From contig CAJXRQ010000005.1 in NCBI GenBank assembly GCA_913060505.1, positions 62,001 through 126,000 of the forward strand: a stretch of 64,000 bases of DNA. The letters are read 5' to 3'. Position numbers and translations under genes: made by a program. Below are positions 11,985 through 52,872 of the stretch, in pieces. The notes under the pieces are model-generated. The model saw nothing but the letters and a program-made list of their open reading frames with translations, made no database searches and was not told where the DNA came from. This DNA is from an uncultured Desulfovibrio sp. Lineage in GTDB: Bacteria; Desulfobacterota; Desulfovibrionia; Desulfovibrionales; Desulfovibrionaceae. Each line of letters opens with the position of its first letter. Positions within the stretch are counted from its first letter, which is position 1.

Positions 11985-12060
11985 TGGTGGGCGGTACAGG
12001 GCTCGAACCTGTGACCCTCGGCTTGTAAGGCCGATGCTCTCCCAGCTGAGCTAACCGCCC
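11985..12060 (-). tRNA. tRNA-Val (TAC)
   Basis: A 76-base cloverleaf with acceptor GGGCGGT / ACCGCCC, discriminator A and encoded CCA. Anticodon TAC (in C-T-TAC-A-A) reads valine. It is first in the two-tRNA transcript. Confidence 0.97.
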
Positions 12061-20725: not shown

Positions 20726-23443
20726 CTAGCCTTTGAGGCCGGCCAGAATCTTTTCAGGCCGTGCGGGGAGTTCCCTGATGCGAACGCCGCAGGCGTTGTA
20801 GATGCCGTTGATGATGGCCGGGTGCGGACCGCAGAGCGGCACTTCGCCGACGCCGGAGGCGCCGAACGGGCCATCGGCACGCGGGGTTTCCACGTAGATG
20901 ATGTCCATCTTGTCCGGGATATCCTTGATGTACGGAAGACCGGCGCCCACCATGGTGGAGTGCTTTTTGATGTCTTCGTAATCTTCGGTCAGGGCCAGGC
21001 CGATACCCTGGGCCAGGCCGCCGTAGATCTGGCCGTCGACCAGCAGGAAGTTGTTGACCGTGCCGATGTCGGCAACCATGGTCATGCCTTCCACTGAGGT
21101 CTTGCCGGTAGCGAGTTCCACGGCAACTTCGGCCATGAACACGCCGTACATGTAGCAGCAGAACGGGTTGCCCTGTCCGTTTTCGTCGCAGTCGTTGGCC
21201 GGGGCGGTGAACTTGCCGTAGTAGCGCAGTTCCTTCTTGTCGGCCACCATCTCTTCATAGGTGCGGAAGCCGCCTTCGGGCTTTTTCATGGCCGCAACGA
21301 GCTGGTCGCAGGCGTTCTTGGTGGCCTGTCCGACCATGACCTGCGAACGGGAACCGCCAGCCGGGCCGGCGTTGGGGGCCTTGCTGGTGTCGCCGATGAC
21401 GATGTGGATCTGCTCGGGGCTCAGGCCCAGAGGACGCAGGGCTTCGTGGGCAGTACCCAGGGAACCCATGTCCGCGCCCTGACCGTGGTCACCCCAGCAG
21501 GTGTAGATGGTCACGGTGCCGTCTTCGTTCAGAGCGGCATCGGCTTCCGCGGTGTCCGGTCCGTCAAGGCCGGAGGCGTATACGGCCACGGCAACACCCA
21601 CGCCGCGCTTGATGGCGTCCGTGGAGTCCTGCTCGGCCTTTTTCTTGGCTTCTTCATATTTGGGACGCAGCTTGTCGATCATCTCGGGCAGGCTGTAGAC
21701 TTCGGGATCCTGGCCGGTTGGCGTGGTGGAACCTTCGCGGTACACGTTCTTGTAACGCAGTTCCAGCGGGTCCATGCCCAGTTTTTCGGCCAGCTCGTCC
21801 ATCAGCACTTCGGACGGGAACTCGGCTTCCGGTCCGCCGTAGCCGCGGAATGCTGCACCCCAGCAGTGGTTGGTGCACACGGTGCGGCCTTCACCACGGA
21901 TGGACGGGATGTCGTAACCGGCACCGATGAACTGTGCGCCGCGCAGGGTCAGCAGGTCACCGAATTCCGAGTACGGGCCGTGGTCCACGGTCCAGTCGGT
22001 TTCCATGCCCAGCAGCTTGCCGTCATTGGTGGCGGCCATGCGCACGGAGGTGAACTGCGGCGAGCGCTTACCGGTGTAGGTCTGCTGCTGGTGCCAGTCA
22101 TAGTTCAGGTAGCACAGGCGGCCGGTAGCCATGGAGGCCACGCCCACCAACGCTTCCATGGTCGGCGAGAACTTGTACCCGAAGGTGCCGCCCGTGGGGT
22201 TCTGGACCATGACGATATTTTCAGGCTCCACGCCGATGCCCGGAGCGATCATGTACAGGTGCAGGTGCAGGCCGATGGACTTGGAATGGATGACCAGCTT
22301 GCCCTCGTCGTTTTCGTAGGCGAATCCCACGTCCGGCTCGATGGGCATGTGCGGCTGGCGCTGCGTGTAGTAGTCGCCTTCCACGACCACGTCGGCCTTG
22401 TCGAAGATCGGCTTGGTGTCGTCACCCTTGGCGACCTTCTGGATGTAGTAAACGTTGGGTGTGCCCGGATGGATTTCGATGGCGTCGTCGGCCATGGCTT
22501 CCGGGGCGCTCATGTATTCGGGGAGCTGTTCCAGCTCGACCTTGACCTTCTTGGCCGCGGCACGGGCGTTTTCATCCGTGTCCGCGCACACGATGGCAAT
22601 GGCGTCGCCGTACTGGAACACCTTTTCGTCGCAAAGGATCGGACGATCCCAACCGTCACCCTTGTTGGTGGGGAAGGTGATCAGGCCCGTGATGCGGTTC
22701 TTGCCCTTGACGTCCTTGTGCGTCACCACCTTGAACACGCCGGGCATGGCCTCGGCTTCGCTGGTGTCGATGGACAAAATGTTTGCGTGGGAGACTTCCG
22801 CCTGAACCAGCGCGCAATGCAGGCTGCCCGGGGGCAGGTGCAGGCCCAGGTCGGCGCCGAAGTCCCAGGTGCCGGTAACCTTGGCCACGGCGTTCGGACG
22901 CGGGTACTTGGTACCCCAGATGCGGCCGTCTTCGGGAAGCTTGAAAATCAGGTCGTCCATGGTCTTTTCGCCACGCATGACTTCCGCGGCGGCCATGACA
23001 GCGTCCACCAGCGGCTTGTAGCCCGTGCAACGGCAGGCGTTGCGATGCTTCTGGAACCAGTCGCGAACTTCCTCACGAGTCGGGGACGGATTGGATTCCA
23101 GCAGCGCCACCGTGGATACGATGAAGCCCGGAGAACAGAAACCGCACTGGGCTCCGCCGTAAGCAATCCAAGACATCTGAACCGGATGCAGACGATCCGG
23201 ACTGCCAACACCCTCAAGCGTGCGGATCTGGGAGTATTCCTTGATCCGTTTCCATTTGCGAGTGCACGAACGGATCACTTTGCCGTCCATGATGATCGAA
23301 CAGCTACCGCACTGGCCCGTGCCGCAACCGACCTTTACACTCGTCAGACCCAGGTTCTCGCGCAGGACCAGAGCCAGGGATTTGTCACCCTCGGCCACAA
23401 CCATGCGTTCGACACCGTTGACCTTGATCGTTTTCTTGAGCAT
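20726..23443 (-). CDS. mop: Molybdenum aldehyde oxidoreductase (MOP type)
   Basis: Single-chain enzyme of the xanthine oxidase family that oxidises aldehydes to carboxylates, with two [2Fe-2S] clusters and molybdopterin cytosine dinucleotide. C40, C45, C48, C60 (plant-type cluster) and C100, C103, C137, C139 (second cluster) fall at the same numbers as in the Desulfovibrio gigas enzyme, and the 905-aa length is nearly the same. G-V-G-E-V-P near the C-terminus carries the catalytic Glu. It has no FAD domain and no signal peptide, so it is cytoplasmic. The codon use is strongly biased towards GC-ending codons, which fits high expression. It has its own terminator. Confidence 0.96.
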   Translation of the reverse strand: MLKKTIKVNGVERMVVAEGDKSLALVLRENLGLTSVKVGCGTGQCGSCSIIMDGKVIRSCTRKWKRIKEYSQIRTLEGVGSPDRLHPVQMSWIAYGGAQCGFCSPGFIVSTVALLESNPSPTREEVRDWFQKHRNACRCTGYKPLVDAVMAAAEVMRGEKTMDDLIFKLPEDGRIWGTKYPRPNAVAKVTGTWDFGADLGLHLPPGSLHCALVQAEVSHANILSIDTSEAEAMPGVFKVVTHKDVKGKNRITGLITFPTNKGDGWDRPILCDEKVFQYGDAIAIVCADTDENARAAAKKVKVELEQLPEYMSAPEAMADDAIEIHPGTPNVYYIQKVAKGDDTKPIFDKADVVVEGDYYTQRQPHMPIEPDVGFAYENDEGKLVIHSKSIGLHLHLYMIAPGIGVEPENIVMVQNPTGGTFGYKFSPTMEALVGVASMATGRLCYLNYDWHQQQTYTGKRSPQFTSVRMAATNDGKLLGMETDWTVDHGPYSEFGDLLTLRGAQFIGAGYDIPSIRGEGRTVCTNHCWGAAFRGYGGPEAEFPSEVLMDELAEKLGMDPLELRYKNVYREGSTTPTGQDPEVYSLPEMIDKLRPKYEEAKKKAEQDSTDAIKRGVGVAVAVYASGLDGPDTAEADAALNEDGTVTIYTCWGDHGQGADMGSLGTAHEALRPLGLSPEQIHIVIGDTSKAPNAGPAGGSRSQVMVGQATKNACDQLVAAMKKPEGGFRTYEEMVADKKELRYYGKFTAPANDCDENGQGNPFCCYMYGVFMAEVAVELATGKTSVEGMTMVADIGTVNNFLLVDGQIYGGLAQGIGLALTEDYEDIKKHSTMVGAGLPYIKDIPDKMDIIYVETPRADGPFGASGVGEVPLCGPHPAIINGIYNACGVRIRELPARPEKILAGLKG

Positions 23444-49930: not shown

Positions 49931-50764
49931 ATGATTAATGGCAGCCTCGCAACTGCGCCCCGGATCGCACTGCAACATTCACCCCTGTTATCTATTGTTA
50001 TATGGGCGTTTGCGCTGATGCTTGCGCCTGCCCTGCCGGGAGCGCGGCCTGCCGTGGCACAGGAAAAACAGATATTCCGCGTGGCCGTGGAAGACCACTA
50101 CCCGCCTTTCAGCATGCTCGACGAAAGCAACCAGCCCCACGGGTTCAATGTGGACATGGCCTTTGCCCTGGGCAAAACCATGAACATGCCGTGCACGGTA
50201 TGTGCCTTGCCATGGCACGAACTCCTGCCGGCCCTGCTTGAAAACCGGGTTGATGCGGTCATCGCAAACATGGCCAAAACCCCGGAACGATGCAATATAG
50301 TATCCTTTACCAAGCCCTACCAGCGCTCCAAGACCGGATTTGTGGCCCGGCAGGGACAATCGCTTCAAGTGAATCCGCAAAATGTCGCCGGGAAACGCAT
50401 TTGTACACAAGCGGATACCATGCAGTACCAATACCTCAAGAGAAAGTACGGCGAAGTTGTTACACTACAGGGCATGGCGACAATGAAAGATGGGTTGATT
50501 GCCGTCGCAAACGGCACATGCGACCTGGCATTGACACCGCTGTTGACGGCGTTCGATTTTCTGCAGTCGGAGGAAGGGCGCCAGTGTGAACTGGCAGGAG
50601 ATGCGCTCAGCCTGAAGGAATTTCCATACAGCACTTCACACATAGCCGTGCGCAAAACCGACACAGATCTCCGAAAAGAGCTGGACGAAGCCATTGATTC
50701 GATCTGTGCGTCCGGTGAACACTATACCATCAGCCGCAAATATTTCCCTTTCAGCGCCCTGTAG
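49931..50764 (+). CDS. Exported solute-binding protein, family 3
   Basis: Periplasmic binding protein of 277 residues. Signal peptide hydrophobic core (L-L-S-I-V-I-W-A-F-A-L-M-L-A-P-A-L) ends at A-V-A-Q. The mature start F-R-V-A-V-E-D-H-Y-P-P-F-S and F-N-V-D-M-A-F-A-L-G, then V-D-A-V-I-A-N-M-A, are typical. Four extra cysteines may form disulfides. The ATG at 49931 is chosen because it gives a proper signal peptide; an earlier in-frame ATG overlaps the repressor gene. No permease is nearby. It starts 80 bp after the CsoR-type gene. Confidence 0.8.
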   Translation: MINGSLATAPRIALQHSPLLSIVIWAFALMLAPALPGARPAVAQEKQIFRVAVEDHYPPFSMLDESNQPHGFNVDMAFALGKTMNMPCTVCALPWHELLPALLENRVDAVIANMAKTPERCNIVSFTKPYQRSKTGFVARQGQSLQVNPQNVAGKRICTQADTMQYQYLKRKYGEVVTLQGMATMKDGLIAVANGTCDLALTPLLTAFDFLQSEEGRQCELAGDALSLKEFPYSTSHIAVRKTDTDLRKELDEAIDSICASGEHYTISRKYFPFSAL

Positions 50765-50805
50765 AAAAGCATCCGCGCATGGGAAATAAAAAAAACGTAA
50801 AGCCC

Positions 50806-50834
50806 TTGCCTTTGTCTGCGCAGAAAGCTATGAG
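50806..50834 (+). promoter_or_regulatory. Promoter of the ilvBN leader transcript
   Basis: TTGCCT (50806-50811), a 17-base spacer and TATGAG (50829-50834) put the RNA start about 12 bases before leader peptide 1. Confidence 0.65.
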
Positions 50835-50852
50835 ATTTTGAAGAGAAAAATC

Positions 50853-50948
50853 ATGAAGCACTCAATGACGCATACCCACTCCTACGGCGAAAGCCTATCC
50901 ATTATTTCTGTAGTAGTAGTACGTCATTTACTCCGGGCAGTGCCTTAG
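50853..50948 (+). CDS. Leader peptide 1 of ilvBN attenuator
   Basis: A 31-residue peptide with I-I-S-V-V-V-V-R-H-L-L-R-A-V-P at its C-terminus: two Ile, five Val and two Leu codons close together, the substrates needed to sense branched-chain aminoacyl-tRNA. AAGAGA lies before the ATG. Its last codons (50936-50946) are perfectly complementary to the apex of terminator 1 (50980-50990), which is the base-pairing expected for attenuation. Confidence 0.88.
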   Translation: MKHSMTHTHSYGESLSIISVVVVRHLLRAVP

Positions 50949-50970
50949 GTTTTTCGGTTCATTCGAAAAC

Positions 50971-51004
50971 AAACCCCCGAAGGCACTGCCTCCGGGGGTT
51001 TTTC
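50971..51004 (+). terminator. Attenuator terminator 1
   Basis: AAACCCCCG / CGGGGGTTT stem (50971-50979 with 50993-51001), extended by AGGC / GCCT around ACT, ending in TTTTTC. 22 bp after leader 1. Confidence 0.92.
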
Positions 51005-51038
51005 AGTTTCAAGGGACAAAACGGACGAGGAACAGGAC

Positions 51039-51113
51039 ATGATCATCATCACCGCAACAGTAGTAGTAACCGTACTAGTAGTAGCTCTCCCGATTATTCG
51101 GGCAGCGCCGTAG
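51039..51113 (+). CDS. Leader peptide 2 of ilvBN attenuator
   Basis: A 24-residue peptide, M-I-I-I-T-A-T-V-V-V then V-L-V-V-A-L-P-I-I-R-A-A-P. Fifteen of its residues or fewer are other than Ile, Val and Leu: it has five Ile, six Val and two Leu. GAGG precedes the ATG. The last codons (CGGGCAGCGCCGTAG) resemble the end of leader 1 (CGGGCAGTGCCTTAG), so the second module may be a duplicate. The end (51100-51109) can pair with the apex of terminator 2 (51151-51161). Confidence 0.88.
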   Translation: MIIITATVVVTVLVVALPIIRAAP

Positions 51114-51142
51114 CGGAGTGGGCAAACAGCAACACGAACTTC

Positions 51143-51179
51143 CCCCGCCAGGCGCAAGCCCGGCGGGGTTTCTTTTTTT
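51143..51179 (+). terminator. Attenuator terminator 2
   Basis: CCCCGCC / GGCGGGG stem (51143-51149 with 51162-51168) and a TTTCTTTTTTT tail, 23 bp before the ilvB start codon. Confidence 0.92.
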
Positions 51180-51201
51180 CACCAAATCGAGGAGCAACAT
51201 C

Positions 51202-52872
51202 ATGAAACGGACCGGAGCACAAATTATCACTACTCTGCTGGAGCGGCAGGGCGTCACCTCCATTGCAGGCATACCTGGGGGAGCCACGTTGCCGCTGTAT
51301 GACGCACTGATTGAATCCAAAATCAACCATATTCTCACGCGCCATGAGCAGGGAGCAGGATTCATCGCCCAGGGACAGGCCCGAATCACGGGCAAGGCCG
51401 GAGTCTGTCTGGCCACATCGGGCCCGGGAGCAACAAACCTGCTCACGGCCATTGCCGATGCGCGGCTGGACTCCATCCCCATGGTAGCCATCACCGGACA
51501 GGTGACACTGCCCATGATCGGAACGGACGCTTTTCAGGAAGTGGACACCTACGGCCTGACCTTGCCCATCACCAAGCACAACTTTCTGGTACGCAGTACC
51601 GAAGAACTTCTGGAAGTCATTCCCGAAGCTTTTTCCATTGCCGAATCAGGCCGCCCCGGACCGGTATGCGTTGATATTCCCAAGGACGTGCAGACAGCGG
51701 AAATCGAGTTCGACGCATGGCCCGAACCGGGGCAGAAAATACCGCCCATGCAACCGGAGCCCTCGGATATCGAAGCGCTGGCCGCCATGCTCAACAAGGC
51801 CGAACGCCCCATTCTCTATGTCGGAGGAGGCATCACGGCCGCACATTGCTGTTCGGAATTGCAGCAACTCGCACGGCAAAACAACATCCCCGTGGCCTGT
51901 ACGCTCATGGGGCTGGGCACCATTCCCGCGGATGATCCGCTTTTTCTGGGCATGCTCGGCATGCACGGCTCACGCAGCACAAACTACGCCCTGCAGGAAG
52001 CCGATCTCCTGCTGGCCATCGGTGTTCGCTTCGATGATCGCGCAACAGGCAAACTGGAAGAATTCTGCCCGGACGCCGCCATTGCCCATGTAGACATAGA
52101 TCGCTCGGAAATCGGTAAACTTCGTGCGACCAATCTCTCGGTAGCTGCGGATGCAGGGCTGGTTGTGCGGCAACTTCTGCCACTTACGAACCGTGCAAAC
52201 CGTGCGGAATGGCTCCAGCGCATAGCCGAACTCAAGGCCATGGACCCCAAAATGCACAGGCACGAGGACACACATCCCCTTGGCATCATCGAGCGCGTGT
52301 CGGAAATCATGGGCGAAGGAAGCGTCATCACCACGGACGTGGGGCAGCACCAGATGTGGGTTGCCCAGCACTATCCGTTCCGCAAGCCGCGCACCCTGCT
52401 GACGTCGGGCGGGCTGGGAACCATGGGCTTTGGACTGCCGACAGCCATTGGCGCTGCCATGGCCTCACCGGGCAAACGGGTGGTCTGTTTCAGCGGCGAC
52501 GGCTCGATCCTCATGAACATTCAGGAACTGGCCACGCTGGCGGACCTGAACCTTCCCGTGACCGTCATCATCATGAACAACCACCATCTCGGGCTGGTGC
52601 GGCAGCAACAAGAACTCTTTTATGGCAACAGGATCAATGCATCGCGCTTTGAAACGGTCCCGGACTTTGCGGCACTGGCCCGGACCTTTGGAGTGCGGGG
52701 TACCAACCTTGGCAGTGAAACCGACCCGAAATCGGCTCTGGCGGACGCCTTGAGCGGTTCCGGTCCCTGCATTGTGGACATGCCCATCGACCATGTCCGC
52801 AACGTCTATCCCATGGTTCCTCCCGGAGCCGCAAACTACCAAACGCTGGAAGGAGCCGCCCATGACTACTAA
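51202..52872 (+). CDS. ilvB: Acetolactate synthase large subunit
   Basis: Thiamine-diphosphate enzyme (556 aa) that makes acetolactate or acetohydroxybutyrate, the first common step of valine, leucine and isoleucine synthesis. R-H-E-Q-G-A-G-F holds the catalytic Glu; G-D-G-S-I-L-M-N...M-N-N is the TPP/Mg site; T-G-Q-V and F-Q-E-V-D follow the usual order. GAGGAG 7 bases before the ATG at 51202 sets the start, clear of the attenuator. It overlaps ilvN by 11 bp and is controlled by the double attenuator. Confidence 0.96.
   Translation: MKRTGAQIITTLLERQGVTSIAGIPGGATLPLYDALIESKINHILTRHEQGAGFIAQGQARITGKAGVCLATSGPGATNLLTAIADARLDSIPMVAITGQVTLPMIGTDAFQEVDTYGLTLPITKHNFLVRSTEELLEVIPEAFSIAESGRPGPVCVDIPKDVQTAEIEFDAWPEPGQKIPPMQPEPSDIEALAAMLNKAERPILYVGGGITAAHCCSELQQLARQNNIPVACTLMGLGTIPADDPLFLGMLGMHGSRSTNYALQEADLLLAIGVRFDDRATGKLEEFCPDAAIAHVDIDRSEIGKLRATNLSVAADAGLVVRQLLPLTNRANRAEWLQRIAELKAMDPKMHRHEDTHPLGIIERVSEIMGEGSVITTDVGQHQMWVAQHYPFRKPRTLLTSGGLGTMGFGLPTAIGAAMASPGKRVVCFSGDGSILMNIQELATLADLNLPVTVIIMNNHHLGLVRQQQELFYGNRINASRFETVPDFAALARTFGVRGTNLGSETDPKSALADALSGSGPCIVDMPIDHVRNVYPMVPPGAANYQTLEGAAHDY

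Follow-up and report, generated by a model that had tools for sequence, protein, structure and literature searches.

Two homologous leader-peptide attenuators stand one behind the other in the ilvBN leader of an uncultured Desulfovibrio sp., within the 64,000-nt stretch of DNA analysed here (the window). The duplicated attenuator is confirmed as real and conserved within one clade, as judged from its anatomy, its presence throughout that clade, the homology of the modules and own-module pairing beyond that of shuffles. It is quite probable that the two modules are ribosome-mediated attenuators of the ivbL-ilvBN type, both directed mainly at valine and acting in series on one transcript, with read-through probabilities that would multiply. 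In textbooks, attenuation by a leader peptide is a standard switch of amino acid operons, and it is usually presented as a single unit.

Both modules lie on the plus strand between the end of the upstream gene (nt 50764) and the start of ilvB at nt 51202 (Table 1). Leader 1 translates as MKHSMTHTHSYGESLSIISVVVVRHLLRAVP and leader 2 as MIIITATVVVTVLVVALPIIRAAP. The identities of ilvB and ilvN come from NCBIfam model matches; the short IlvN (98 aa) presumably resembles the small subunit of E. coli AHAS I.

Table 1. Features of the ilvBN leader and related genes in the window.
Feature	Position (nt)	Strand	Details
Candidate promoter	50806..50834	+	TTGCCT 50806-50811, 17 nt spacer, TATGAG 50829-50834
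Distal leader peptide ORF (leader 1), 31 aa	50853..50948	+	ATG 50853, TAG 50948; four consecutive GTA Val codons
Distal antiterminator 5′ strand (leader 1 end)	50936..50946	+	11 bp with 50980-50990
Distal intrinsic terminator T1	50971..51003	+	stem 50971-51001, T run to 51003
Shine-Dalgarno GAGGA, leader 2	51027..51031	+	identical in 4/4 tandem genomes; seven bases 5′ of ATG
Proximal leader peptide ORF (leader 2), 24 aa	51039..51113	+	ATG 51039, TAG 51113; six Val codons, all GTA
Proximal antiterminator 5′ strand (leader 2 end)	51100..51109	+	partner 51151-51161
Proximal intrinsic terminator T2	51143..51179	+	stem 51143-51168, T-rich tail to 51179; z −3.90
ilvB, acetolactate synthase large subunit	51202..52872	+	TIGR00118 702.7 bits, above cut-off; best model PRK08155 833.6 bits, under cut-off 870
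ilvN, short acetolactate synthase small subunit, 98 aa	52862..53158	+	PRK08178 111 bits, under cut-off 128; E 2.3e-32
tRNA-Val, anticodon TAC, reads GTA	11985..12060	-	adjoins tRNA-Asp(GTC); same window as the GTA-rich leaders

A sequence-only reading of this DNA had described two leaders rich in Val, Ile and Leu, each followed by its own terminator, and the description holds when the ORFs are read and the terminators are compared with shuffled sequences. T1 and T2 fold at −22.4 and −22.9 kcal/mol (z −4.63 and −3.90), each better than 200/200 dinucleotide shuffles, and in both modules the intrinsic terminator lies between the leader ORF and the structural gene. A detector for a Val/Ile/Leu-rich ORF followed by a terminator gives 4 matches in the window, two of which are the leader modules, and 0, 0, 0, 0, 2 and 0 matches in six shuffled windows. 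The detector overlooks some real terminators (the proximal one of locus L003, those of genomes G014 and G055, and those of 10 of 60 family loci), and a search with model R1 gives the firmer count. The simple consensus scan lists neither T1 nor T2 as described; one listed hairpin (nt 51156–51171) overlaps T2, and the scan's terminator count of 2 is not above that of its shuffles (mean 1.3). The pair would escape such a scan. Folding of the whole leader 2 region (nt 51095–51181) is not unusual (z −0.70). Rfam yields no family at gathering score in the leader region. Matches to the Rfam His_leader on both strands near the modules, scoring 22 bits where the gathering score is 49, were set aside as hairpin look-alikes. 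The T-box covariance model has no gathering-score match in the window; of the 9 matches that nt 50760–51260 gives up to E 5, none is to this model.

The end of each leader was also said to be complementary to the apex of its terminator, which is borne out in both modules. In the distal copy of the window, nt 50936–50946 are complementary to the T1 apex, nt 50980–50990, over 11 bp with zero mismatches, and this apex forms the 3′ strand of the antiterminator. In the proximal copy, nt 51100–51109 pair with nt 51151–51161 as 4 + 5 bp flanking a small internal loop. The CGGGCAG-x-GCC reported as common to the two leader ends is present in both. The proximal copies of the four genomes that carry both modules (G000, G016, G020 and G023, the tandem genomes) have 5 core and 4 upper pairs, with one upper pair being G-C in G000 and G016 and C-G in G020 and G023. 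A CGGG after the leader stop codon in many genus copies may extend the antiterminator.

Folding of cut transcripts, ended before the 3′ arm of the terminator and with a ribosome set on the Val run, was applied to 39 modules, with four further single modules outside the test. The pairing of leader end with apex is reached by at most 5/100 shuffles in 35 of the 39, including 7 of the 8 tandem modules; the four above this threshold are the distal module of G020 (7/100 shuffles) and the modules of G003, G047 and G055. The five core antiterminator pairs are formed in 97.9% of the 195 cells of the 39 modules, and only 20–48% of cells pair when the pairing is slid. Two of these pairs are changed on both sides, a number matched by 8/500 shuffles, while the covariation score is matched by 0/500, both with shuffles that ignore relatedness. 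Covariation among related ilvB leaders, which had been proposed as a check, is thus found for the antiterminator over 39 modules and also for the T1 stem, where four pairs are changed on both sides in the four tandem genomes (10/500 shuffles equally high). It is not found beyond chance for the distal antiterminator in the four tandem genomes alone, where two pairs are changed on both sides and 124/500 shuffles score as high.

When the complete transcript is folded at equilibrium with the ribosome at Val, the terminator is mostly favoured (median P 1.0 for 31 single modules; 0.001 to 1.0 for the tandem modules), and the switch must therefore be kinetic. Equilibrium folding allows such a kinetic switch and does not prove it. 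The pairing results support an antiterminator exclusive of the terminator, with a 5′ strand that a ribosome at the stop codon could mask; equilibrium folding and the four-genome count speak to the contrary.

The proposed mechanism is as follows. In each module a ribosome would trail RNA polymerase through the Val-rich, mostly GTA, leader ORF. With plentiful Val-tRNA, the ribosome would get to the stop codon and mask the leader end, preventing its pairing with the apex, and the terminator would form and end transcription. With scarce Val-tRNA, the ribosome would stall on the Val run, and the leader end would be free to pair with the 5′ arm and apex of the newly made terminator, letting the polymerase continue. 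The switch probably stops transcription at plentiful valine. We infer that both leaders are translated, that ribosomes stall at Val and that transcription terminates at both sites. The polymerase would reach ilvBN only after clearing both modules, so that the read-through probabilities would multiply, with less leak at plentiful valine and possibly a steeper rise at shortage.

A short candidate leader ORF with a run of end-product codons is found in both modules of the four tandem genomes. Of the 11 Val codons of the window leaders, 10 are GTA. In 30 long ORFs chosen mechanically, GTA accounts for 13.5% of 990 Val codons; its share is 39/47 in the ends of the eight tandem leaders, 145/258 in single leaders and 52/1101 in 30 ilvB genes. 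The Val run lies 8 codons 5′ of the stop codon in the four distal leaders and 8–9 codons in three of the four proximal ones. Among 40 modules, 32 have VVV at codons 5–7 of the last 15, and so do 5 of the 8 tandem modules, namely all four distal and one proximal. The start, stop and VVV register of leader 1 are preserved in G016, G020 and G023. In the proximal leaders of three of the four tandem genomes the register is broken (VVA, LAA and VVA), and Leu and Ile codons occur in and around the control run, as VLVVALPII in the window and LP-x-I in 4/4.

The Leu and Ile codons of the proximal leaders would suit a true two-input gate, in which the distal module senses Val and the proximal one Val with Leu/Ile, that is, partly different branched-chain amino acids. 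The VVV register in 1/4 proximal leaders and the six Ile codons of the G020 distal leader, where Ile exceeds Val (5), point in the same direction. Such a gate is nevertheless unlikely, since Val outnumbers both Leu and Ile in 7/8 tandem leaders (counted from the translations), and a ribosome stalled at those Leu/Ile codons that are closer to the stop would be expected to keep the leader end covered. The modules are homologous and both Val-rich, with Ile and Leu codons also present, which in the proximal leaders may add a partly different input. Rather than an 'AND-like' response, as suggested earlier, the two modules more plausibly sample largely one signal twice.

The duplicate is confined to a small clade. 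There are ilvB matches in 60/60 relatives. Both modules are present in 4 of the 35 genus genomes examined, namely the four tandem genomes; a 36th, G029, has a partial distant ilvB copy only and falls outside the 35. Two leaders, each with a detected terminator, are seen in G000, G016 and G020, whereas G023 shows both leaders but a detected terminator for only one; with model R1 both modules are recovered in each of the four. The sequence-only reading had set conservation of both modules in homologous genomes as its own trial: within the clade they are in 4/4 genomes, but outside it two modules occur in 0/114 ilvB loci (31 from the genus, 79 from other family genera and 4 from another family of the order), each with one sense-strand R1 match. 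The match is full-length and exactly one in 35/35 of the genus loci and those of the other family, 31 of which were used in building R1. In 60 genomes of other family genera, chosen for having an R1 match, there is likewise one full-length sense-strand match each, with an ilvB-like gene downstream in 59/60 (G150 unconfirmed); the detector picks up a single module in 50 of the 60 and nothing in the other 10. Twenty further ilvB loci from 19 new genomes have one module and one sense-strand R1 match each, partial in eight. In a family-wide R1 search (199 genomes, G023 excluded), close full-length pairs occur, among the matches listed, only in G000, G016 and G020. Across the phylum, R1 has matches at E 1e-5 in 19 of 395 genomes, and G000 is the only one of these with a close full-length pair. 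Among other bacteria, 78 of 80 ilvB-type loci were scanned (2 dropped because the match lay close to the start of the contig); a module is present in 30 of these, and two distinct terminators in none.

Across the family, a lone ivbL-like attenuator before ilvB is common (loci L005–L030, L116–L124 and L156–L235). Eleven stretches 5′ of distant ilvB copies (paralogues and order outgroups) show no leader-terminator module. A second, more distant ilvB, about 47% identical (L125–L127, L134 and L135), likewise has no such module in the stretches examined. Searching the DNA of the genus with the window leader returned a short match in G033, 88% over 39 bases.

The four tandem genomes form one clade in a quick RpoB tree of 27 of the 36 genus genomes and 3 others (SH-aLRT 100), split into (G000,G016) and (G020,G023). 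In a tree of 36 module units, excluding G014, three of another family, G009, G031 and G051, the distal copies (87/94) and the proximal copies (100/97) form separate groups, apart from the single modules. Since the two kinds of copy group separately, one duplication before the split of the four, with both copies kept, is indicated. The earlier suspicion that one module is a duplicate agrees with this grouping and with the presence of both modules throughout one clade. By the sequences at hand the modules are homologous and stem from a single old duplication of which neither half was lost.

A duplicate may also decay, with one module alone regulating. The two modules seen in 0/114 other loci would fit this, as would the broken Val register in the proximal leader of 3/4 genomes and the little sign of codon-level selection in the distal leader, where changes by codon position number 21, 22 and 27, with little third-position excess, and codon changes are 8 synonymous and 32 non-synonymous. 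In the proximal leaders the changes number 19, 22 and 44, the third position being favoured. Decay is nonetheless improbable, because both copies in 4/4 genomes retain a start and a stop codon, a Val-rich stretch, a terminator and pairing within the module, even though 7/100 shuffles reach the distal pairing of G020.

The tandem clade may have exchanged its ilvBN genes for a set from outside, or these genes may have evolved fast. IlvB is 73–84% identical to that of the window within the clade vs 54–61% in other genus members, and class-wide (348 genomes) the identity of the next IlvB beyond the four is 62%. A quick IlvB tree places E. coli-type sequences with the single-module IlvB of the genus, away from the four, but it has one very long outgroup branch and this placement is unsure. 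No such gap is seen for an aldehyde oxidoreductase encoded in the window, its best full-length matches being 79–80% in G020 and G023 and 70–84% in most single-module species, except for a distant match only in G004 and a split match in G009. This molybdopterin-dependent enzyme of 905 aa has two copies, one at nt 20729–23443 of the window on the minus strand and one outside it but on the same contig (C5:55787–58501), at a distance of about 24 kb, with 100% identity as listed.

Two other arrangements can be weighed briefly. The proximal module might serve a promoter of its own inside or after the distal module, with no series on one RNA. The upstream candidate promoter is itself weak, below the threshold of a simple consensus scan that finds no sigma-70 site in nt 50400–51500, and this would favour a separate one; CTTGC, the following TTT and the CTA at the second hexamer are invariant across the four tandem genomes. 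The same scan finds no promoter-like site for the proximal module, T1 and leader 2 are only about 35 nt apart, and a separate promoter is very improbable. Equally slight are the prospects that the leaders act otherwise (translation-coupled decay, Rho or peptide arrest) with the hairpins as plain terminators: candidate control codons before ilvB of Streptomyces coelicolor are reported to have been altered without effect (PMC1262725), but the leader end-apex complementarity in 35/39 modules and the pair changes over 39 are what attenuation predicts.

With serial attenuation preferred, we lean towards the view that the clade retains the same-signal duplicate as a pseudo-cooperative device. For every ilvBN transcript, two ribosomes would have to stall, each independently, on GTA codons decoded by tRNA-Val(UAC), and the response to valine would be multiplicative, with a steeper slope and less leak.

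The serial 'double-lock' idea as such is already known from mefA/msrD and tandem T-boxes. A duplicated same-amino-acid leader-peptide attenuator was not found in the openly licensed PMC literature, older subscription papers being outside this scope. A survey of Actinobacteria treats ilvB leader peptides, and the terms 'tandem' and 'duplicat' are absent from its text. Two leader peptides are reported for ermB (PMC8274638). The mefA/msrD operon of streptococci has two ribosome-mediated transcription attenuators, both macrolide-responsive, which its authors call a 'double-lock system' against basal expression (PMC10314930). Its leader peptides are dissimilar, the second attenuator is located 3′ of mefA and acts on msrD alone, and the signal is a drug rather than charged tRNA (PMC10314930), whereas the window modules are homologous and adjacent within one leader. 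Salmonella mgtCBR has two leader ORFs in one mRNA leader, responding to ATP and proline, 'a singular example' in the words of the paper (PMC3641672); its signals differ, while the window modules are homologous and, it appears, mainly Val-directed. Pseudo-cooperative tandem riboswitches place two complete same-ligand switches in series and are argued to steepen the dose response (PMC9481103); the window leader, unlike these, is without a metabolite aptamer. Tandem T-boxes of Bacillota, before ilvB and other branched-chain amino acid genes, make two consecutive terminator decisions on uncharged tRNA (PMC12452182). T-boxes bind tRNA directly, whereas the proposed sensor in the window, which has no T-box match, is a translating ribosome. 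If true, the duplicated attenuator would be a case of convergence with tandem T-boxes before ilvB, a peptide-attenuator counterpart.

The closest likeness is to ivbL-ilvBN of E. coli (L041) and other Enterobacteriaceae, which has a Val-rich leader ending in -AP, the closely similar terminator CCCCGCCGGCGCAAACCGGGCGGGG and ilvB downstream, and which R1 matches at E 1.4e-11; it has one module vs two in the window. Relatives in the genus and family, with their single ilvB attenuator, share the kind of leader and the terminator core, and differ in having one module. Since the natural duplicate occurs beside close single-module species that share its genus, its gene and its class of sensor, one step and two become comparable, and whether serial attenuators sharpen the response or merely cut leak is directly measurable there.
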